Shown here: positions 27,318 to 34,585 of the stretch, in pieces | Layout of the letters: the number at the start of each line of letters is the position of its first letter | How positions within the stretch are numbered: the stretch's first letter is position 1 | Assembly (NCBI GenBank): GCA_015075745.1 | Contig: JABTTW010000002.1 | Location: 944,453 to 1,008,452 of the forward strand | DNA: 64,000 bases | Reading direction: 5' to 3' | DNA from: Planctomycetia bacterium | GTDB taxonomy: Bacteria > Planctomycetota > Phycisphaerae > UBA1845 > UTPLA1 | Notes under the pieces: generated by a model | Seen by the model: only the letters and a program-made list of their open reading frames with translations | Told to the model about the DNA's origin: nothing | Databases searched by the model: none | Program-made: the position numbers and the translations under genes

Positions 27318-29147
27318 TTATGACCCGCCGGAATCGCGAGCATCAATCTCCGCGCCGACGGAATTCTCCGCGAACGCGGGAATCTGAAAACTCACGACCG
27401 TGCCCTCGCCCACTTTGCTGCGAATGGCGACCTTGCCCTGCATGGCATTGACGGCATGCTTCACGATGGCCAGCCCCAGGCCGGTGCCGCCCTGATTCAT
27501 GCCGCGCGACCTGTCGACCTGATAAAATCGCTCGAAGACGCGGTCGATATCTTCCATCGGGATGCCGCAGCCGTCGTCCTCCACCTCGAAAACCGCGAAC
27601 TTGTCCTCGCGCCGGCAACTGAGCTTGATGCGCCCGCCCTCCGGGATGAACTTGACCGCGTTATCGATGAGATTCTTGAGAATCAGCTCCAGCCATCGCT
27701 GATCAGTGTGGATCGGCCCGACGTCGGACTTCATGGTGAAGGTCGCTTGCTTCGCGCTCAGAACTTGACCGAAGGTGGCCCGCAGGCCGGCATAGACTTC
27801 TTCAAGGTCGAAAGTGGAATAATTCAGTTCAATATTGACGGACTCCACCTTGCTGAGATTCATCAGATCGTCGGTCAGGGCTTGCAGGCGCATCAGGTTT
27901 CGATCAATCATGGCCATGAAACGCGCCTGTGCGTTCGCGTCAAGGCCCGGCTCTCTCAGCGTGTCCACTGCGGCGCGAATCGCCGCCACCGGCGTTCGCA
28001 GTTCGTGTGAAGCGTTGGCGACGAAGTCGGATTTCATCGCGACCGACTTGGCGATGGCGGTGATGTCGCGCAGACACATCAACCAGGCGATGGGCGTTTC
28101 AGTGTCGACGACGTGAATGATCAACGCGTCGACGGTTCGCGCGACGCCGTTGGAAGTGAGAATGATCTCGCGACGAACCTCTTTTGAACCGGACGAGGTT
28201 GTCTCCTCCCACAATCGGCGAAGCCCGCGATCGGGAATCTGCTCAACAATGGGCCCGCCGACCAGCGAATGGGCAATGCCGAGAATCCGGATCGCCGCCG
28301 GATTGACCAACAGCACAATCCCCTCTTGATTCACCGCGATGACGCCTTCTTCCAGCGTGCCGATCGTGATGGCCAGATCGCGCCGCTGCTGATGCGCTTC
28401 CTGGATTCTGTCGGACAGATTTCGCCGCATTCGATCCAGCGCCGCGGCGACCTGGCGAATCTCGTCGTCGCCCTCGACCTCCAGCCTCGTGGCCAGATCG
28501 CCGCGACCGAGCCGATTGGCCCACGCACCGACGCGTTGAATCGGGGCGGCGAGGCCTCGAGACATGAACCACGCGATCATCAGCGCCAGGGGCAGGGCCA
28601 CGCAGAGCCCCGCTGCGATAAGCTGCCAGATGACCCGCTCCCGCCGTGCCAGATCCTCAAACGGCGCCGCAATGCGGACGATGGCCACCGTCGCGCCGTC
28701 AATGATCAACGGCGCCGCGACATAGACAAAGGAATGACCGACCGACGCGCTGAGTCGCCGGTTGACGCCGATTCGTCCCTGCAACGCCTCGATCACCTCG
28801 GGGCGGTCAGAGTGATTCGCCATGGACTTCGCCGGTGCGTCTGAGTCAGCGATGACGTCACCGTCAGGCAGAATCACGGTTGTCCGAAGGCCCGTGTCAT
28901 TCTTGATTTGCAGACAACCCTCCTGCAGCGAGGCCGAAGATTCGGACCAGCTTCCGGCCACCACTCGGGTCGCGAGGTGGGCACTGTTGCGAAGCTGCTC
29001 GACGTTGTAGTCGCTCAGCCAGTGCTGCATGATCTGCCAGGCAAACGCGGCCACCAGCAGCATTCCGATGCACATCATCAAGCCGAGGCGCGTGAAGACG
29101 CGCTTGAAAAAGTTGCCCTGGCCCGTACTCAAGTCATCGTGAAGCAT
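27318..29147 (-). CDS. phoR: PhoR-like sensor histidine kinase
   Basis: A 609-residue membrane sensor kinase. Helices at about 18-40 and 173-195 flank a periplasmic sensor of about 130 residues. A HAMP domain spans about 196-248, a PAS domain about 258-365, and HisKA begins at 374 with His 381 in NASHELRTPVAAIR. The HATPase has NLIDNAVKFIPEGG (N box), DDGCGIPMEDIDRVFERFYQVDR (G1/F boxes) and GGTGLGLAIVKHAV (G2). It pairs with the phoB gene 114 bp upstream and lies beside PiT transporters, so phosphate-starvation signalling is the natural call. Unlike enterobacterial PhoR it has a sizeable periplasmic domain, as in Bacillus. Confidence 0.9.
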   Translation of the reverse strand: MLHDDLSTGQGNFFKRVFTRLGLMMCIGMLLVAAFAWQIMQHWLSDYNVEQLRNSAHLATRVVAGSWSESSASLQEGCLQIKNDTGLRTTVILPDGDVIADSDAPAKSMANHSDRPEVIEALQGRIGVNRRLSASVGHSFVYVAAPLIIDGATVAIVRIAAPFEDLARRERVIWQLIAAGLCVALPLALMIAWFMSRGLAAPIQRVGAWANRLGRGDLATRLEVEGDDEIRQVAAALDRMRRNLSDRIQEAHQQRRDLAITIGTLEEGVIAVNQEGIVLLVNPAAIRILGIAHSLVGGPIVEQIPDRGLRRLWEETTSSGSKEVRREIILTSNGVARTVDALIIHVVDTETPIAWLMCLRDITAIAKSVAMKSDFVANASHELRTPVAAIRAAVDTLREPGLDANAQARFMAMIDRNLMRLQALTDDLMNLSKVESVNIELNYSTFDLEEVYAGLRATFGQVLSAKQATFTMKSDVGPIHTDQRWLELILKNLIDNAVKFIPEGGRIKLSCRREDKFAVFEVEDDGCGIPMEDIDRVFERFYQVDRSRGMNQGGTGLGLAIVKHAVNAMQGKVAIRSKVGEGTVVSFQIPAFAENSVGAEIDARDSGGS

Positions 29148-29261: not shown

Positions 29262-29975
<714 letters not shown>

Positions 29976-30040: not shown

Positions 30041-30046
30041 ATTATA
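30041..30046 (-). promoter_or_regulatory. Possible -10 element ahead of phoB
   Basis: A perfect TATAAT on the minus strand, 66 bp ahead of the phoB ATG. No good -35 hexamer stands at 16-18 bp. The Pho-box-like site lies a further 114 bp upstream, too far for the usual geometry, so a second promoter nearer the box is also possible. Confidence 0.4.
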
Positions 30047-30159: not shown

Positions 30160-30189
30160 CCTTACGCTGCGTTAACACAATCTTAACCG
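30160..30189. promoter_or_regulatory. Pho-box-like site upstream of phoB
   Basis: Three 8-bp units recur with an 11-bp period: CCTTACGC (30160-30167), GTTAACAC (30171-30178) and CTTAACCG (30182-30189). The last two are close to the cyanobacterial Pho box (CTTAACCT repeats with 3-bp spacers). The site lies between the PiT gene end and phoB. It aligns without gaps to a second site at 32726-32755 with 19 of 30 bases identical. Confidence 0.65.
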
Positions 30190-30242
30190 TCCGCGATCGC
30201 CAACCATTTTTCGGTTCGCCCACGCCGACCGCTGCGAAGCAT

Positions 30243-31889
30243 TCACTCTTCCTCCAGCGAATACTCTTCGGGATGCATTCGCTCACGCGCCTCCAGACGA
30301 ACGCGATGCTCCTGCGCATCTGATCGACGTTTGACGTGACCGCGAATAAACAGGTTCACGATGATGCAGGTCGCCATCCCGATGACACCCAGATAGAACA
30401 CCACCAAACTCACGAGTCCTGCGGCAATCATGGCGATCAAGGCTGCCGCAAACCAGCAGAACACGACCCAGATGGACCGTCCAAGCTTGAGTGCGGCATC
30501 ACCACGAACAAAAATACGATCGGCGGCCCCCGTCGCGATGACCGCCGCGAAAGCGACATAGGTCGTCGAAACTGGCATGCCCAGCGCCGAAGCAGTAGCG
30601 ATGACGCTCGCGGAAACACACACGATCACGCACGCCCGGAGCGGATCGTAGTGCAGAGTCTTGCCGCGAACGTTCTTGGTCTCAATCGGCGCCAGCGACG
30701 GCATGACCTCACCGCCCCGGCCGCGAGCCAGAATCCGACGCGCGATGGTGATGCACCAGTTCGGAGCCCATAGTTTCACGTGATGGCCGGCACTGCCCAT
30801 GCGTACCTCGGCGCGCGTCACCCGCTGGGCATGATCCGTCATCATTCCCATGACCAACAGAACGCCAGACCCGAAGAGCGCCCACCACGGGATGTTCGCC
30901 CGGGAGATGTCCTCGATCGGCTGATTCTGGTAAACGCCTGAGACCACCTTGAGCGCGGCCAGGCCCGGCGCCGCACAGTTGGCGAGGTCGTTCTGCCCGA
31001 ACGAAAACGCCATGCCGAGCATGCCCAGGACCGTTAAGACGGGAAACAACAGCTCGGCCGCCCGACGACGATAGATGATCAGCGTCAAGTGGATCAGGAT
31101 GCCGAACACGACCCACATCGCCAGAAGCGCAAGAATCGGACCCTCATAGGGACTCGACTTGATGACGGAGACGAGAGGCTTAATGAGAGACACGTTCTTC
31201 ATGCCCTTGATCAACATGAAGTAGGCCAGGCCCGCCATGAGTCCCCCACCGACAAGGCCGCCATAAAGAAGCAACTGCGGCAGGCTGGACCATTTGTCTC
31301 TGATCGCGGCCCTTGCAAATCGCTGGATGATGAAACCCATCACCCCGGAGAGGAAGATCGAGCAAACAATGGCCACAAGTACCTTGACGACGCCCCCCCA
31401 AGTGACGGCATGAATGGACTCCGGCGATCTGAATACGCCGAGAAACAGCGATGCCCCGAGCAACTCGAAAATCAGCGTCATCGTCGTGCTGACCGGCATG
31501 CCGAACGCGGAATAGGTATAGAGCAGAATCGTGTCAACGATATAAACAGAGGTGTAGATCGCCAGCACCTCTCTGACCCCGAAGGCCTCCGGAGAGAAGA
31601 TTCCCCGGCGGGCGGTCTCAATGACATCTGACGACAGCGTGGCCCCGAGGATGACGCCGATCGCGGCGATCCGAACGGCCATTTTCCGGCTGAGGATGCG
31701 CGAGCCGAACACGGAATTGACAATGTTGGCGGCGTCGTTGCGACCGACCTCGATCGTATCCCAAATCAGCATGCCGATCGCAAGCACCGCCGCGGCCGCC
31801 GTAAAGCTGCTAAACCCCTCCGCGGCGGCGGACTGTGCGATCACATTGAGAACGCCATGTTGCAAAGAGTCGCTTCTTTCATCGTCCAT
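30243..31889 (-). CDS. PiT-family inorganic phosphate transporter (long form)
   Basis: A 548-residue membrane permease of the PHO4/PiT family, which takes up metal-phosphate with H+ or Na+. Both halves show the PiT signature: EVGRNDAANIVNSVFGSRIL near residue 47 and SFGQNDLANCAAPGLAALKV in the second half. GMPVSTTMTLIFELLG and GMPVSTTYVAFAAVIATG are the paired repeat motifs. A hydrophilic loop between the halves (HAQRVTRAEVRMGSAG... to KNVRGKTLHYDPL) makes it longer than the second PiT in this window. It follows a DUF47 gene by 34 bp, the usual pairing. The charged C-terminus ends in EEYSLEEE. Confidence 0.94.
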   Translation of the reverse strand: MDDERSDSLQHGVLNVIAQSAAAEGFSSFTAAAAVLAIGMLIWDTIEVGRNDAANIVNSVFGSRILSRKMAVRIAAIGVILGATLSSDVIETARRGIFSPEAFGVREVLAIYTSVYIVDTILLYTYSAFGMPVSTTMTLIFELLGASLFLGVFRSPESIHAVTWGGVVKVLVAIVCSIFLSGVMGFIIQRFARAAIRDKWSSLPQLLLYGGLVGGGLMAGLAYFMLIKGMKNVSLIKPLVSVIKSSPYEGPILALLAMWVVFGILIHLTLIIYRRRAAELLFPVLTVLGMLGMAFSFGQNDLANCAAPGLAALKVVSGVYQNQPIEDISRANIPWWALFGSGVLLVMGMMTDHAQRVTRAEVRMGSAGHHVKLWAPNWCITIARRILARGRGGEVMPSLAPIETKNVRGKTLHYDPLRACVIVCVSASVIATASALGMPVSTTYVAFAAVIATGAADRIFVRGDAALKLGRSIWVVFCWFAAALIAMIAAGLVSLVVFYLGVIGMATCIIVNLFIRGHVKRRSDAQEHRVRLEARERMHPEEYSLEEE

Positions 31890-31923
31890 CTGCGGACGAT
31901 TTATCGTGCTGTAACAGTTGGCG

Positions 31924-32595
31924 CTACTGCGAGATCATGCGCCTGAGCCGATCGGCCATCTTTTCCGCGTGGTTGGCGAGCTGACCCAGCTCCAGAAACA
32001 CCCTCCACCACAGCATCAGATCCGAAGCCTTCAGCTCGTCCTCTATGGCGAACAATTCCTGACTCAGCTTGTACTGAGCCTTGTCTGCCTCCCACTCGGC
32101 AAGCTCCACCGCGCGAATCTGATCATGCAGACCCGCCGCCTGATCGGGCGTGAAGCCGCGCGCCACCAGCTCGGGAAGGCTCTCGTTCATCGCGTGATTC
32201 TTGTCGCAGACCTGCAGGATGGTTTCCACGTAATCGAACACGCGCGACTGGAGACTCGCCGGCATCTTCAGCTTCTTGATGGTCAGCAGGATCGCGATGT
32301 CTTCCACCGCGTCGGCCATGTCATCCTGAAGCTTCAAATAGCCCAGCAGATCGCCCCGATAGACCGGAAGAAAGAAACTGCGCGGGATGGCCTGCCGGAT
32401 CTCGTCCTTAATCGTGTCGGCTTCGTGCTCCAGCTTGAACACGCGCTTCACGAGTTCGTCCAACTGGTCGCCCTGCTGATCCCGGACTGCCTCCAGCATC
32501 GGACGGACCAGTGTCACGCACTCGCGCACTTTCTTGAGATGATGCAACAATGGTTCAAACGGCGAACGCTGAAACAGCTCCTCGATCAGGCCCAT
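31924..32595 (-). CDS. DUF47/TIGR00153 PhoU-like protein
   Basis: A 223-residue helical protein starting at ATG 32595, which has GGAG six bases upstream; the frame extends to 32607. It opens MGLIEELFQRSPFEPLLHHLKKV and contains the PhoU-like metal-binding pattern FKLEHEADTIKDEIRQ (E-x-x-x-D). It continues with YLKLQDDMADAVEDIAILLT. The family is nearly always encoded next to PiT transporters and is thought to regulate them. It is the first gene of the leftward PiT operon and shares its upstream region with a second, rightward DUF47 gene. Confidence 0.92.
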   Translation of the reverse strand: MGLIEELFQRSPFEPLLHHLKKVRECVTLVRPMLEAVRDQQGDQLDELVKRVFKLEHEADTIKDEIRQAIPRSFFLPVYRGDLLGYLKLQDDMADAVEDIAILLTIKKLKMPASLQSRVFDYVETILQVCDKNHAMNESLPELVARGFTPDQAAGLHDQIRAVELAEWEADKAQYKLSQELFAIEDELKASDLMLWWRVFLELGQLANHAEKMADRLRRMISQ

Positions 32596-32934
32596 GGCGA
32601 TCTCCAATCGGGACCTACCCGTCCCATTCGCGCGACGGAATTCCGCCGCGCAGCACGTCCGGCCGACGGAACTACGTTCCCGCCCACCGAAGGTTACATT
32701 CTCTTTCGATTGACGCAGTCCACAACCTAATCCAGCGCTAAGAAACTGTTAAGAGCTCGGCCGATCAGATATCTAGACTGCGGTCACCAGAAAAATTCCC
32801 AGGATGTTGCGATTTTTGCGATTGCTCCTGCGATTCAACGCTGGACAGGTGCCGCGCGCCCGGCCATGATTTCCCCTCTGCCGGTCGGATATCCGTGATG
32901 CTCCGCAGAAATGCAGGCGAGGGAGGATTGGGTT
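32596..32934. other. Divergent control region between two DUF47-PiT operons
   Basis: No gene is seen here. The region has to drive both the leftward and rightward DUF47-PiT operons. A Pho-box-like site lies near its middle. A TATCTA at 32770-32775 could be a -10 for the rightward operon. For the leftward operon no convincing -10 was found. Confidence 0.55.
32726..32755. promoter_or_regulatory. Pho-box-like site between divergent PiT operons
   Basis: Three units with an 11-bp period: CCTAATCC (32726-32733), GCTAAGAA (32737-32744) and GTTAAGAG (32748-32755). It aligns base for base to the site ahead of phoB. It is about 130 bp from the leftward start codon and 180 bp from the rightward one, so a single PhoB site could serve both operons. 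Confidence 0.62.
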
Positions 32935-33558
32935 GTGTTCAGTATTCTGCCTCGCGACACCGAGTTTTTCGACTTATTCGATCACACCGCCCGCATCGTT
33001 CATACGACGGCGAAAGCCTATGCCGAGCTCGCCTCGGACTACAGGAACCGGGAAAAGCACATCGCGGAAATCCGTAAACTCGAACACGACGGTGACGACG
33101 CGGTCCATGCAGCCCTGGGCAAACTCGACACGTCCTTCATCACCCCATTCGACCGTGAGGACATTCACGCCCTCCTTTCGCGCATGGATGATGTCATTGA
33201 CGAGATCGACGCCGCCGCAAAACGCTTTACGCTCTATTCGATTCCCGAACCGACTCCCTGGATGGAAAAGCAAACCGGAATTCTCGTACGCGCTACGCTG
33301 CTCGTCGCCGAAGCCGTCAAGGGTCTCCGCGACCTGCGCCGACCGGGAGACTTGCAGAAAAAGCTCGTCGAAATCCACCAACTGGAGAACGACGGAGACG
33401 ATCTCAACCACGCCGCCGTCGCCGAACTCTATGCCACGGCAAAGGACCCGATCCTCGTCATGAAATGGAAGGAAGTCTACGACTTTACCGAGCGAGCCAT
33501 AGACCGCTGCGAGGACATCGCTGACACGATCGAGGGCATCATCCTCAAGAACGCCTGA
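32935..33558 (+). CDS. DUF47 PhoU-like protein (rightward copy)
   Basis: A 207-residue protein. The GTG at 32935 is chosen because GGAGG lies eight bases upstream and because the family begins M-F-x-hydrophobic-L-P-[KR]; an ATG at 32911 adds eight residues without support. Visible marks are FSILPRDTEFFDLFDHTARIV, IRKLEHDGDDAVHAALGKLDTSFITPFDREDIHALLSRMDDVIDEIDAA, and QLENDGDDLNHAAVAELY. The two E-x-D-G-D-D patterns are the PhoU-like metal sites. It is distantly related to the leftward DUF47 protein, not a recent copy. The PiT gene starts 10 bp after its stop. Confidence 0.94.
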   Translation: MFSILPRDTEFFDLFDHTARIVHTTAKAYAELASDYRNREKHIAEIRKLEHDGDDAVHAALGKLDTSFITPFDREDIHALLSRMDDVIDEIDAAAKRFTLYSIPEPTPWMEKQTGILVRATLLVAEAVKGLRDLRRPGDLQKKLVEIHQLENDGDDLNHAAVAELYATAKDPILVMKWKEVYDFTERAIDRCEDIADTIEGIILKNA

Positions 33559-33568
33559 GGACCCTCGC

Positions 33569-34585
33569 ATGATCACCTACATCGTTATCATCGTAGCGAT
33601 CGCCCTCATTTTCGACTTCGCCAACGGATTCAACGATGCCGCCAACTCGGTGGCCACCATCGTCGCAACTCGGGTGCTCACGCCGCGCCTTGCCGTTCTC
33701 TGGGCCGCCTTTTTCAATTTCATCGCCGCCTTCTTCTTCGAGACCCATGTCGCCGCGACCATCAGCAAGGGAATCGTCGATCAGGCCATCGTCGATCCAC
33801 ACCTGATCCTCGCCGTCTTGCTTTCCGCCATCACCTGGACGGTCCTCTGCACTTATCGCGGCCTGCCCATCAGCGTCTCCCACTCGCTGATCGGTTCCAT
33901 GATCGGCGCGGGCATGGTCAAAGCGGGAATCGGCTGTCTCAAGTGGTCAAAGATCGGCGAGATCTCCGTTTACATCGTCATTGCACCCTTGGCCGGCTTG
34001 GTCCTGGGCTGGATACTGATGGTGGCCACGATTTGGGTTTGCAGGAATAAAACGCCCCGCGGCGTCGATAGCTGGTTTCGGCGGCTGCAACTCGTTTCCG
34101 CCGGCGCATTCAGCCTCAGCCACGGTCTTAATGATGCCCAGAAAACCATGGGAATCATCATGCTTCTCCTGCTCAGTAACCCGGCCCTTGCCAAGTATGC
34201 GACCATCGATGGCGCAAATACCGGACACCCTCGCTGGTGGATCATCCTGAGTTGCCACTTCGCCATTGCCCTCGGCACCTATCTGGGCGGATGGAAGGTC
34301 GTCCACACACTGGGGCATCGCGTCACAAAGCTTCAGCCCGTCGGAGGATTTTGCGCCGAGACCGGCGGCGGCGTCACCATCATCGGGCTCTCGGCCCTTG
34401 GGATTCCCCTCAGCACCACACACACCATCACCGGCGCGATCTTCGGCGTCGGCCTCACGCGGCGACTTTCCGCGGTGCGGTGGTCGGTCGGCGGAAAGAT
34501 CATCACGGCCTGGGTGCTTACCCTGCCCGCCGCGGCGGCAATGGCCGGCGCGATCTTCTGGATCATCTCTAAGTTGGTCTATTGA
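33569..34585 (+). CDS. pit: PiT-family inorganic phosphate transporter (short form)
   Basis: A 338-residue phosphate permease with about 9-10 helices. The first PiT signature is DFANGFNDAANSVATIVATRVLTPRLAVLWAAFFNFIAAF. The second is SLSHGLNDAQKTMGIIMLLLL, and GIPLSTTHTITGAIFGVGLTRR is the conserved C-terminal loop. It lacks the long central loop of the other PiT in this window. The ATG has GAGGA seven bases upstream. Having two different PiT forms suggests different affinity, direction or regulation. Confidence 0.95.
   Translation: MITYIVIIVAIALIFDFANGFNDAANSVATIVATRVLTPRLAVLWAAFFNFIAAFFFETHVAATISKGIVDQAIVDPHLILAVLLSAITWTVLCTYRGLPISVSHSLIGSMIGAGMVKAGIGCLKWSKIGEISVYIVIAPLAGLVLGWILMVATIWVCRNKTPRGVDSWFRRLQLVSAGAFSLSHGLNDAQKTMGIIMLLLLSNPALAKYATIDGANTGHPRWWIILSCHFAIALGTYLGGWKVVHTLGHRVTKLQPVGGFCAETGGGVTIIGLSALGIPLSTTHTITGAIFGVGLTRRLSAVRWSVGGKIITAWVLTLPAAAAMAGAIFWIISKLVY

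Follow-up and report, generated by a model that had tools for sequence, protein, structure and literature searches.

Bacterial PHO boxes are composed of at least two direct repeats of 11 nt upstream of Pho genes, the repeated unit being TTAACA in Bacillus subtilis. A review lists CTGTCAT as the unit of Escherichia coli and GTTCACC as that of Streptomyces coelicolor (PMC4415409). In cyanobacteria, the SphR box contains at least three tandem CTTAACCT repeats separated by 3-bp linkers (PMC1906773). In Sinorhizobium meliloti, the orfA-pit operon is described as repressed upon Pi starvation, with its PHO box placed immediately ahead of the putative start of translation (PMC3131613). Within the PVC superphylum, the PhoB regulon of Waddlia chondrophila was characterized by ChIP-Seq and includes many hypothetical-protein targets; the same 2016 study called it “very interesting” to define the PhoB regulons of other members of the superphylum (PMC4989314). 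No report of a planctomycete Pho box was found in the open-access PMC literature.

In this work, two tandem-repeat sites were studied in a 64,000-nucleotide stretch of planctomycete DNA (the window). On the minus strand, read from right to left, it contains the genes d47a, pitL, phoB and a phoR-like kinase gene, and the operon d47b-pitS is divergent from d47a. The relevant features are as follows.

27318..29147, minus strand: phoR-like sensor kinase, 609 aa, with HAMP, PAS, HisKA and HATPase domains
29262..29975, minus strand: phoB, OmpR/PhoB-type response regulator, 237 aa, top NCBIfam match PhoB
30041..30046, minus strand: TATAAT, probable -10 element of phoB, 71 bp before the phoB start
30160..30189, plus strand: site 1, predicted three-unit Pho box CCTTAC / GTTAAC / CTTAAC with an 11-bp period; the CTTAAC reading is on the plus strand
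30243..31889, minus strand: pitL, PiT-type phosphate transporter, 548 aa (PF01384, 4e-42)
31924..32607, minus strand: d47a, DUF47 protein, 227 aa (PF01865 PhoU_div, 1e-44)
32697..32702, minus strand: AGAATG, weak -10-like element 17 bp past the -35-like element; TATGTC at this place in G001 and G002
32720..32725, minus strand: TTGTGG, -35-like element starting 11 bp past the site 2 dimer
32726..32755, minus strand: site 2, predicted three-unit Pho box CTTAAC / CTTAGC / ATTAGG; the CTTAAC reading is on the minus strand
32911..33558, plus strand: d47b, DUF47 protein, 215 aa (PF01865, 1e-26)
33569..34585, plus strand: pitS, PiT-type phosphate transporter, 338 aa (PF01384, 7e-93)

A second layout of this module is seen in another genome (G034, locus L043), where the DUF47-PiT operon and a phoB-phoR pair point away from each other.

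The letters of site 1 (CCTTACGCTGCGTTAACACAATCTTAACCG) and site 2 (CCTAATCCAGCGCTAAGAAACTGTTAAGAG) were re-read and realigned, and the ungapped identity of 19 of 30 positions proposed in the initial annotation is correct. The middle and right units, GTTAAC and CTTAAC in site 1 and GCTAAG and GTTAAG in site 2, all fit [CG][TC]TAA[CG], whereas the left units (CCTTAC and CCTAAT, respectively) are degenerate. Both sites thus show direct repeats of at least two units with an 11-bp period, and by their letters they are very probably new instances of the known Pho-box type. As evidence taken alone, however, the identity between the two sites carries no weight. At the GC content of the window, the probability of at least 19 matches in 30 is 2.4e-5 per pair, so that approximately 50,000 such pairs are expected by chance in the window and approximately 1.2 when a stretch of roughly 170 bp is compared with one of roughly 300 bp; significance drawn from this identity was rejected for that reason, and the same number is what speaks for regarding the sites as chance AT-rich repeats in intergenic DNA. 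The pattern SYTAASN5STTAAS with at most one mismatch has five matches in the window, all at sites 1 and 2, against 0.55 expected, and none of 100 shuffled windows reached five; of its strict form, YTAASN5STTAAS, the 5.01-Mb genome has three separate occurrences, and sites 1 and 2 account for two of these. These counts are circular because the pattern was derived from the two sites, a circularity that does not affect the tests in other genomes.

For the latter, the pattern SYTAASN5SYTAAS was scored in the 400 nt upstream of genes across the order, with expectations obtained from dinucleotide shuffles. A match at all 12 positions preceded 9 of the 50 phoB orthologues, where 0.02 were expected, and 25 of them had at least 11 matches (1.2 expected). 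The set comprises 50 of 51 entries; the remaining one, G034, showed no clear box. Outside the genus, the respective counts are 7 and 22 of 47. For the pstS genes (30 of 46 entries), 12 of 12 positions were found in 10 cases and at least 11 in 19. When the spacing was varied from 0 to 16 bp, peaks appeared only at 5 and 16 bp, corresponding to one and two 11-bp periods. For complete and at-least-11 matches, these amounted to 9 and 25 (spacing 5) and 4 and 19 (spacing 16) of the 50 phoB genes, and to 10 and 19 (spacing 5) and 1 and 8 (spacing 16) of the 30 pstS genes. When the columns of the unit were put into 60 random orders and compared with the real one (61 orders in all), SYTAAS was the best, with 41/77 genes against a median of 4, and most of the runners-up were register-shifted versions of this word. 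The unit and period put forward in the initial annotation are therefore upheld by independent data from other genomes, and perfect boxes in front of 9/50 phoB orthologues against 0.02 expected, together with enrichment at spacings 5 and 16 only, leave chance AT-rich repeats a very remote explanation. An identical 17-mer, CTTAGCGCAATCTTAAC, precedes pstS in six genomes of three genera (L222, L223, L224, L228, L240 and L241); its identity extends to the spacer bases, which suggests that the spacer is of importance.

The genome-first search gave a consistent picture. In 100 genomes of the order, CTTARCN5CTTAAC was found as an exact copy at 47 places, spread over 35 genomes, and 21 of these places adjoin phosphate genes: pstS (10), phoB (6), VTC (2), pstB (1), PiT (1) and a PafA-like phosphatase (1). 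The pstB gene passes its NCBIfam cut-off, and the phosphatase has PafA as its best match at a score below the cut-off. The reference sequences for the VTC, DUF4956, PafA and porin labels were taken from box loci, and four pstS references also lie there, so these counts include self-matches; the gene-first tests of phoB and pstS are free of this problem. The reversed pattern is commoner than the forward one, being present in 73/100 genomes. Thirty of its places were compared, by tblastn alone and without Pfam; pst, PiT, VTC and PafA are neighbors at none of them, and 2 of the 30 have weak matches to kinase or regulator paralogues. The random spread of matches that would have spoken against the initial annotation was thus not observed, since the exact copies cluster at phosphate genes, and its suggestion of a lineage regulon motif is supported in the order.

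Near relatives retain the sites as well. Upstream of phoB, the box is kept as G[TC]TAAG N5 GTT[TA]A in two genomes of the same genus (G001 and G002) and one of the same family (G005). Upstream of d47a, the box reads CTTAATGATATCTTAAC in G001, a weaker CTTCATGATATCTTAGC in G002 and GTTAACAAAACCTTAAT in G008, while in G007 and G015 GTTAACGCGTTCTTAAC precedes pitL, in front of which no d47a match was found. Loss upstream of orthologues, which the initial annotation had named as decisive against its proposal, is hence not what is seen. Across the 19 DUF47-PiT upstream regions, window included, complete boxes are found in 3 and at least 11 matches in 5, most regions outside the family having no clear box; this set omits L037, L045 and L026, which are truncated where their contigs end, and L028, L030 and L031, whose matches are weak or partial.

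Judging from what can be read directly in the sequences, namely the repeats with their period, the conservation of the sites and the link of the box to phosphate genes throughout the order, it is very probable that both sites are Pho boxes and predicted binding sites of PhoB. Points that weigh against this reading are the lack of a clear box before most DUF47-PiT operons outside the family, the 26 of 47 exact places at which no classical phosphate gene was recognized, the orientation of site 1 and its distance from the phoB -10, the VTC boxes that read away from their genes, the weak -10 of d47a, and the scores of the regulator and the kinase below their curated cut-offs. Binding by a different OmpR-family regulator was considered with regard to the response regulator encoded in the window: its score against PhoB (TIGR02154) is 238 bits, below the curated cut-off of 296, and many OmpR-family regulators bind tandem repeats of a similar period. 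PhoB is still its best-ranked NCBIfam family, and the top match of the neighboring kinase is PnpS (311 bits, below the cut-off of 400). Against another regulator, the same box marks pstS, pstB and phoB throughout the order, and phoB orthologues adjoin pstS in the genomes of several relatives; we regard this alternative as improbable. In the mechanism that we favor, phosphorylated PhoB from the adjacent gene would bind the tandem 11-bp repeats (CTTAAC, with the variants CTTAGC and GTTAAC) head to tail.

The initial annotation likened the sites to the cyanobacterial type of box, a likeness that holds in part. The CTTAAC core, the 11-bp period, the two to three units and the position upstream of pst genes and phosphatases are common to the boxes of this order and the SphR box. 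The final CT that completes the 8-mer CTTAACCT, however, is not conserved: in 34 forward boxes T never follows the second core directly (C does so in 32%), and it takes the position after that in only 15%. Furthermore, CTTAGC is a frequent first unit here, and the phylum is a different one. Among pstS upstream regions sampled throughout the phylum (30 rows taken as loci), the strict pattern reached 12/12 in none and at least 11 in 4, most other spacings giving 0-3 and spacing 16 also 4. By contrast, TTMAC with an 11-bp period reached at least 9 of 10 positions in 12/30 regions versus 1-6 at other spacings, as in CTTCACGGCCCCTTCAC. Because the strict form is scarcely enriched in the phylum and the 11-bp TTMAC repeat is, CTTAAC is the form of this order, and across the phylum the unit drifts while keeping to the layout of the general 11-bp Pho box. 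The idea of a special link to cyanobacteria was rejected, given the missing CT and the drift of the unit to CTTCAC-like words elsewhere in the phylum. The boxes resemble the general bacterial PHO box in their direct 11-nt repeats upstream of Pho genes and differ from it in the unit, which is CTTAAC or CTTAGC in the order and CTTCAC-like in the rest of the phylum. The likeness to W. chondrophila is that of a PhoB regulon in the PVC superphylum.

With respect to placement, the CTTAAC reading faces the gene itself in nearly all well-scored pstS boxes and in most phoB boxes of the order. Site 2 lies between the divergent DUF47-PiT operons, as the initial annotation stated, and faces the leftward one; site 1 is indeed upstream of phoB but reads away from it. 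The -35-like TTG begins at +11 after the dimer in the window and in G001, G002, G007 and G015 (five of the six loci shown), and at +10 in G008. The -10-like element of d47a-pitL follows the dimer by about 33-34 bp; it is weak in the window, and G001 and G002 show a clear one. This geometry fits promoter activation at d47a-pitL, since site 2, one turn upstream of the conserved -35/-10 of the DUF47-PiT operon, would be in an activator-like position. When -10 elements were surveyed for the 34 forward boxes, the highest counts, at offsets 10, 18 and 32, came to just 4-6 genes, against a maximum of 4 in 300 shuffles; these peaks were dropped as too thin.

The geometry does not fit activation at phoB. 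TATAAT stands 53-101 bp ahead of the phoB start in 7/9 clade loci, and in the window it is separated from site 1 by 124 bp, so that any control that site 1 exerts on phoB would act from a distance. The box faces away from phoB in all nine loci closest to our phoB (L157-L165). An explanation is offered by G003, G009, G010 and G014, where phoB and d47b diverge from either side of the box; given this equivalent box between divergent phoB and DUF47-PiT in related genera, an effect of site 1 on phoB is less certain. Site 1 looks like an old box shared by phoB and DUF47-PiT that would have been kept after d47a-pitL came to lie in between, a history suggested by these arrangements, and it may now serve in distant autoregulation of phoB.

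The direction of control was also weighed. The orfA gene of S. meliloti is presumably a DUF47 gene. Like orfA-pit, the present locus is a PiT operon with a PHO box, and by this precedent of repression on Pi starvation (PMC3131613), PhoB could bind the same boxes and repress the DUF47-PiT operons in phosphate shortage. Here, unlike the S. meliloti box near the start codon, site 2 is located one turn upstream of the conserved -35, neither over nor after the promoter, and no high-affinity Pst that could stand in for a repressed PiT was found in the genome. We consider repression unlikely. Activation of DUF47-PiT by PhoB is the likelier course: bound at site 2, adjacent to the conserved -35 element of d47a-pitL, PhoB would activate the operon when phosphate is short.

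The canonical Pho system with PstSCAB and PhoU was not found in this genome. In a genome 97% complete, no PstS (PF12849), no PhoU (PF01895) and no PstB above its cut-off were found. Among the 17 family genomes, this one included, PstS was not found in 15 and PhoU not in 15, PstB passes the cut-off only in G004, and 14 yielded none of the three. PhoB-like regulators at E <= 1e-50 are present in 16/17. Pst is considered the most conserved member of the Pho regulon (PMC4415409). The family thus appears to keep the phosphate-starvation switch after loss of the usual transporter and brake protein, a combination of PhoR-PhoB without Pst and PhoU for which no report was found in the open-access PMC literature. 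Since PhoR-PhoB and the boxes are retained with no detectable PstS, PstB or PhoU, PhoB here probably controls PiT-DUF47 instead of Pst, and PiT-DUF47 would be the main PhoB-controlled phosphate uptake.

In this genome, CTTARCN5CTTAAC with one mismatch allowed is found at nine places; pst genes are not among them because pst is not detectable there. The sole exact copy (C1:3018995-3019011; L207 1501-1517) is upstream of a gene for a VTC-domain, polyphosphate-polymerase-like protein (PF09359, 2.5e-29), behind which lies a DUF4956-like gene. In the VTC set (14 of 15 entries, a second G030 fragment being left out), complete boxes were found in this genome, G001 and G011, and none in G008, the fourth family member with VTC; outside the family, 0/10 VTC genes reach 12/12 and 2/10 reach 11. 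The box reads away from the gene in this genome and in G001, and matches both ways in G011. The VTC gene is a probable further regulon member by its conserved box, and no report of VTC genes in a bacterial Pho regulon was found in the open-access PMC literature. A box with a single mismatch, CTTAGCGACGCCTTCAC, is found at C1:1510897-1510913 (L208 1501-1517). The gene downstream of it resembles thioredoxin-type arsenate reductases, its NCBIfam score of 123 bits staying below the cut-off, and points to a possible arsenate-phosphate link.

With the Pst-PhoU partners missing, PiT and DUF47, the latter named PhoU_div in Pfam, may have taken over their roles. A more far-reaching and less likely proposal is that this family lost Pst and PhoU, that PiT took on uptake and the PhoU-like DUF47 protein the restraint of PhoR, and that the resulting self-contained, box-wired phoR-phoB-DUF47-PiT module also drives the VTC-type polyphosphate polymerase. 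A family with PhoR-PhoB and no detectable Pst and PhoU is a natural setting in which to ask whether phosphate signalling can run through DUF47-PiT.

What is described here is a cis-motif, tested at the sequence level, of the phosphate regulon in one order of Planctomycetota, and with it PhoB targets become predictable in the order from sequence. The remaining 26 of the 47 exact places include one that adjoins an OprB porin gene and 25 that adjoin other or unresolved genes. The porin gene (OprB family, PF04966, 3e-46) follows the exact box in G012 (L115 1501-1517) by 71 bp. In G040 and G043, exact boxes are found 65 and 33 bp, respectively, before short lipoprotein-like genes (L110 1040-1435 and L235 955-1467, both on the minus strand), which are alike by eye, match no Pfam family and are candidate Pho targets.
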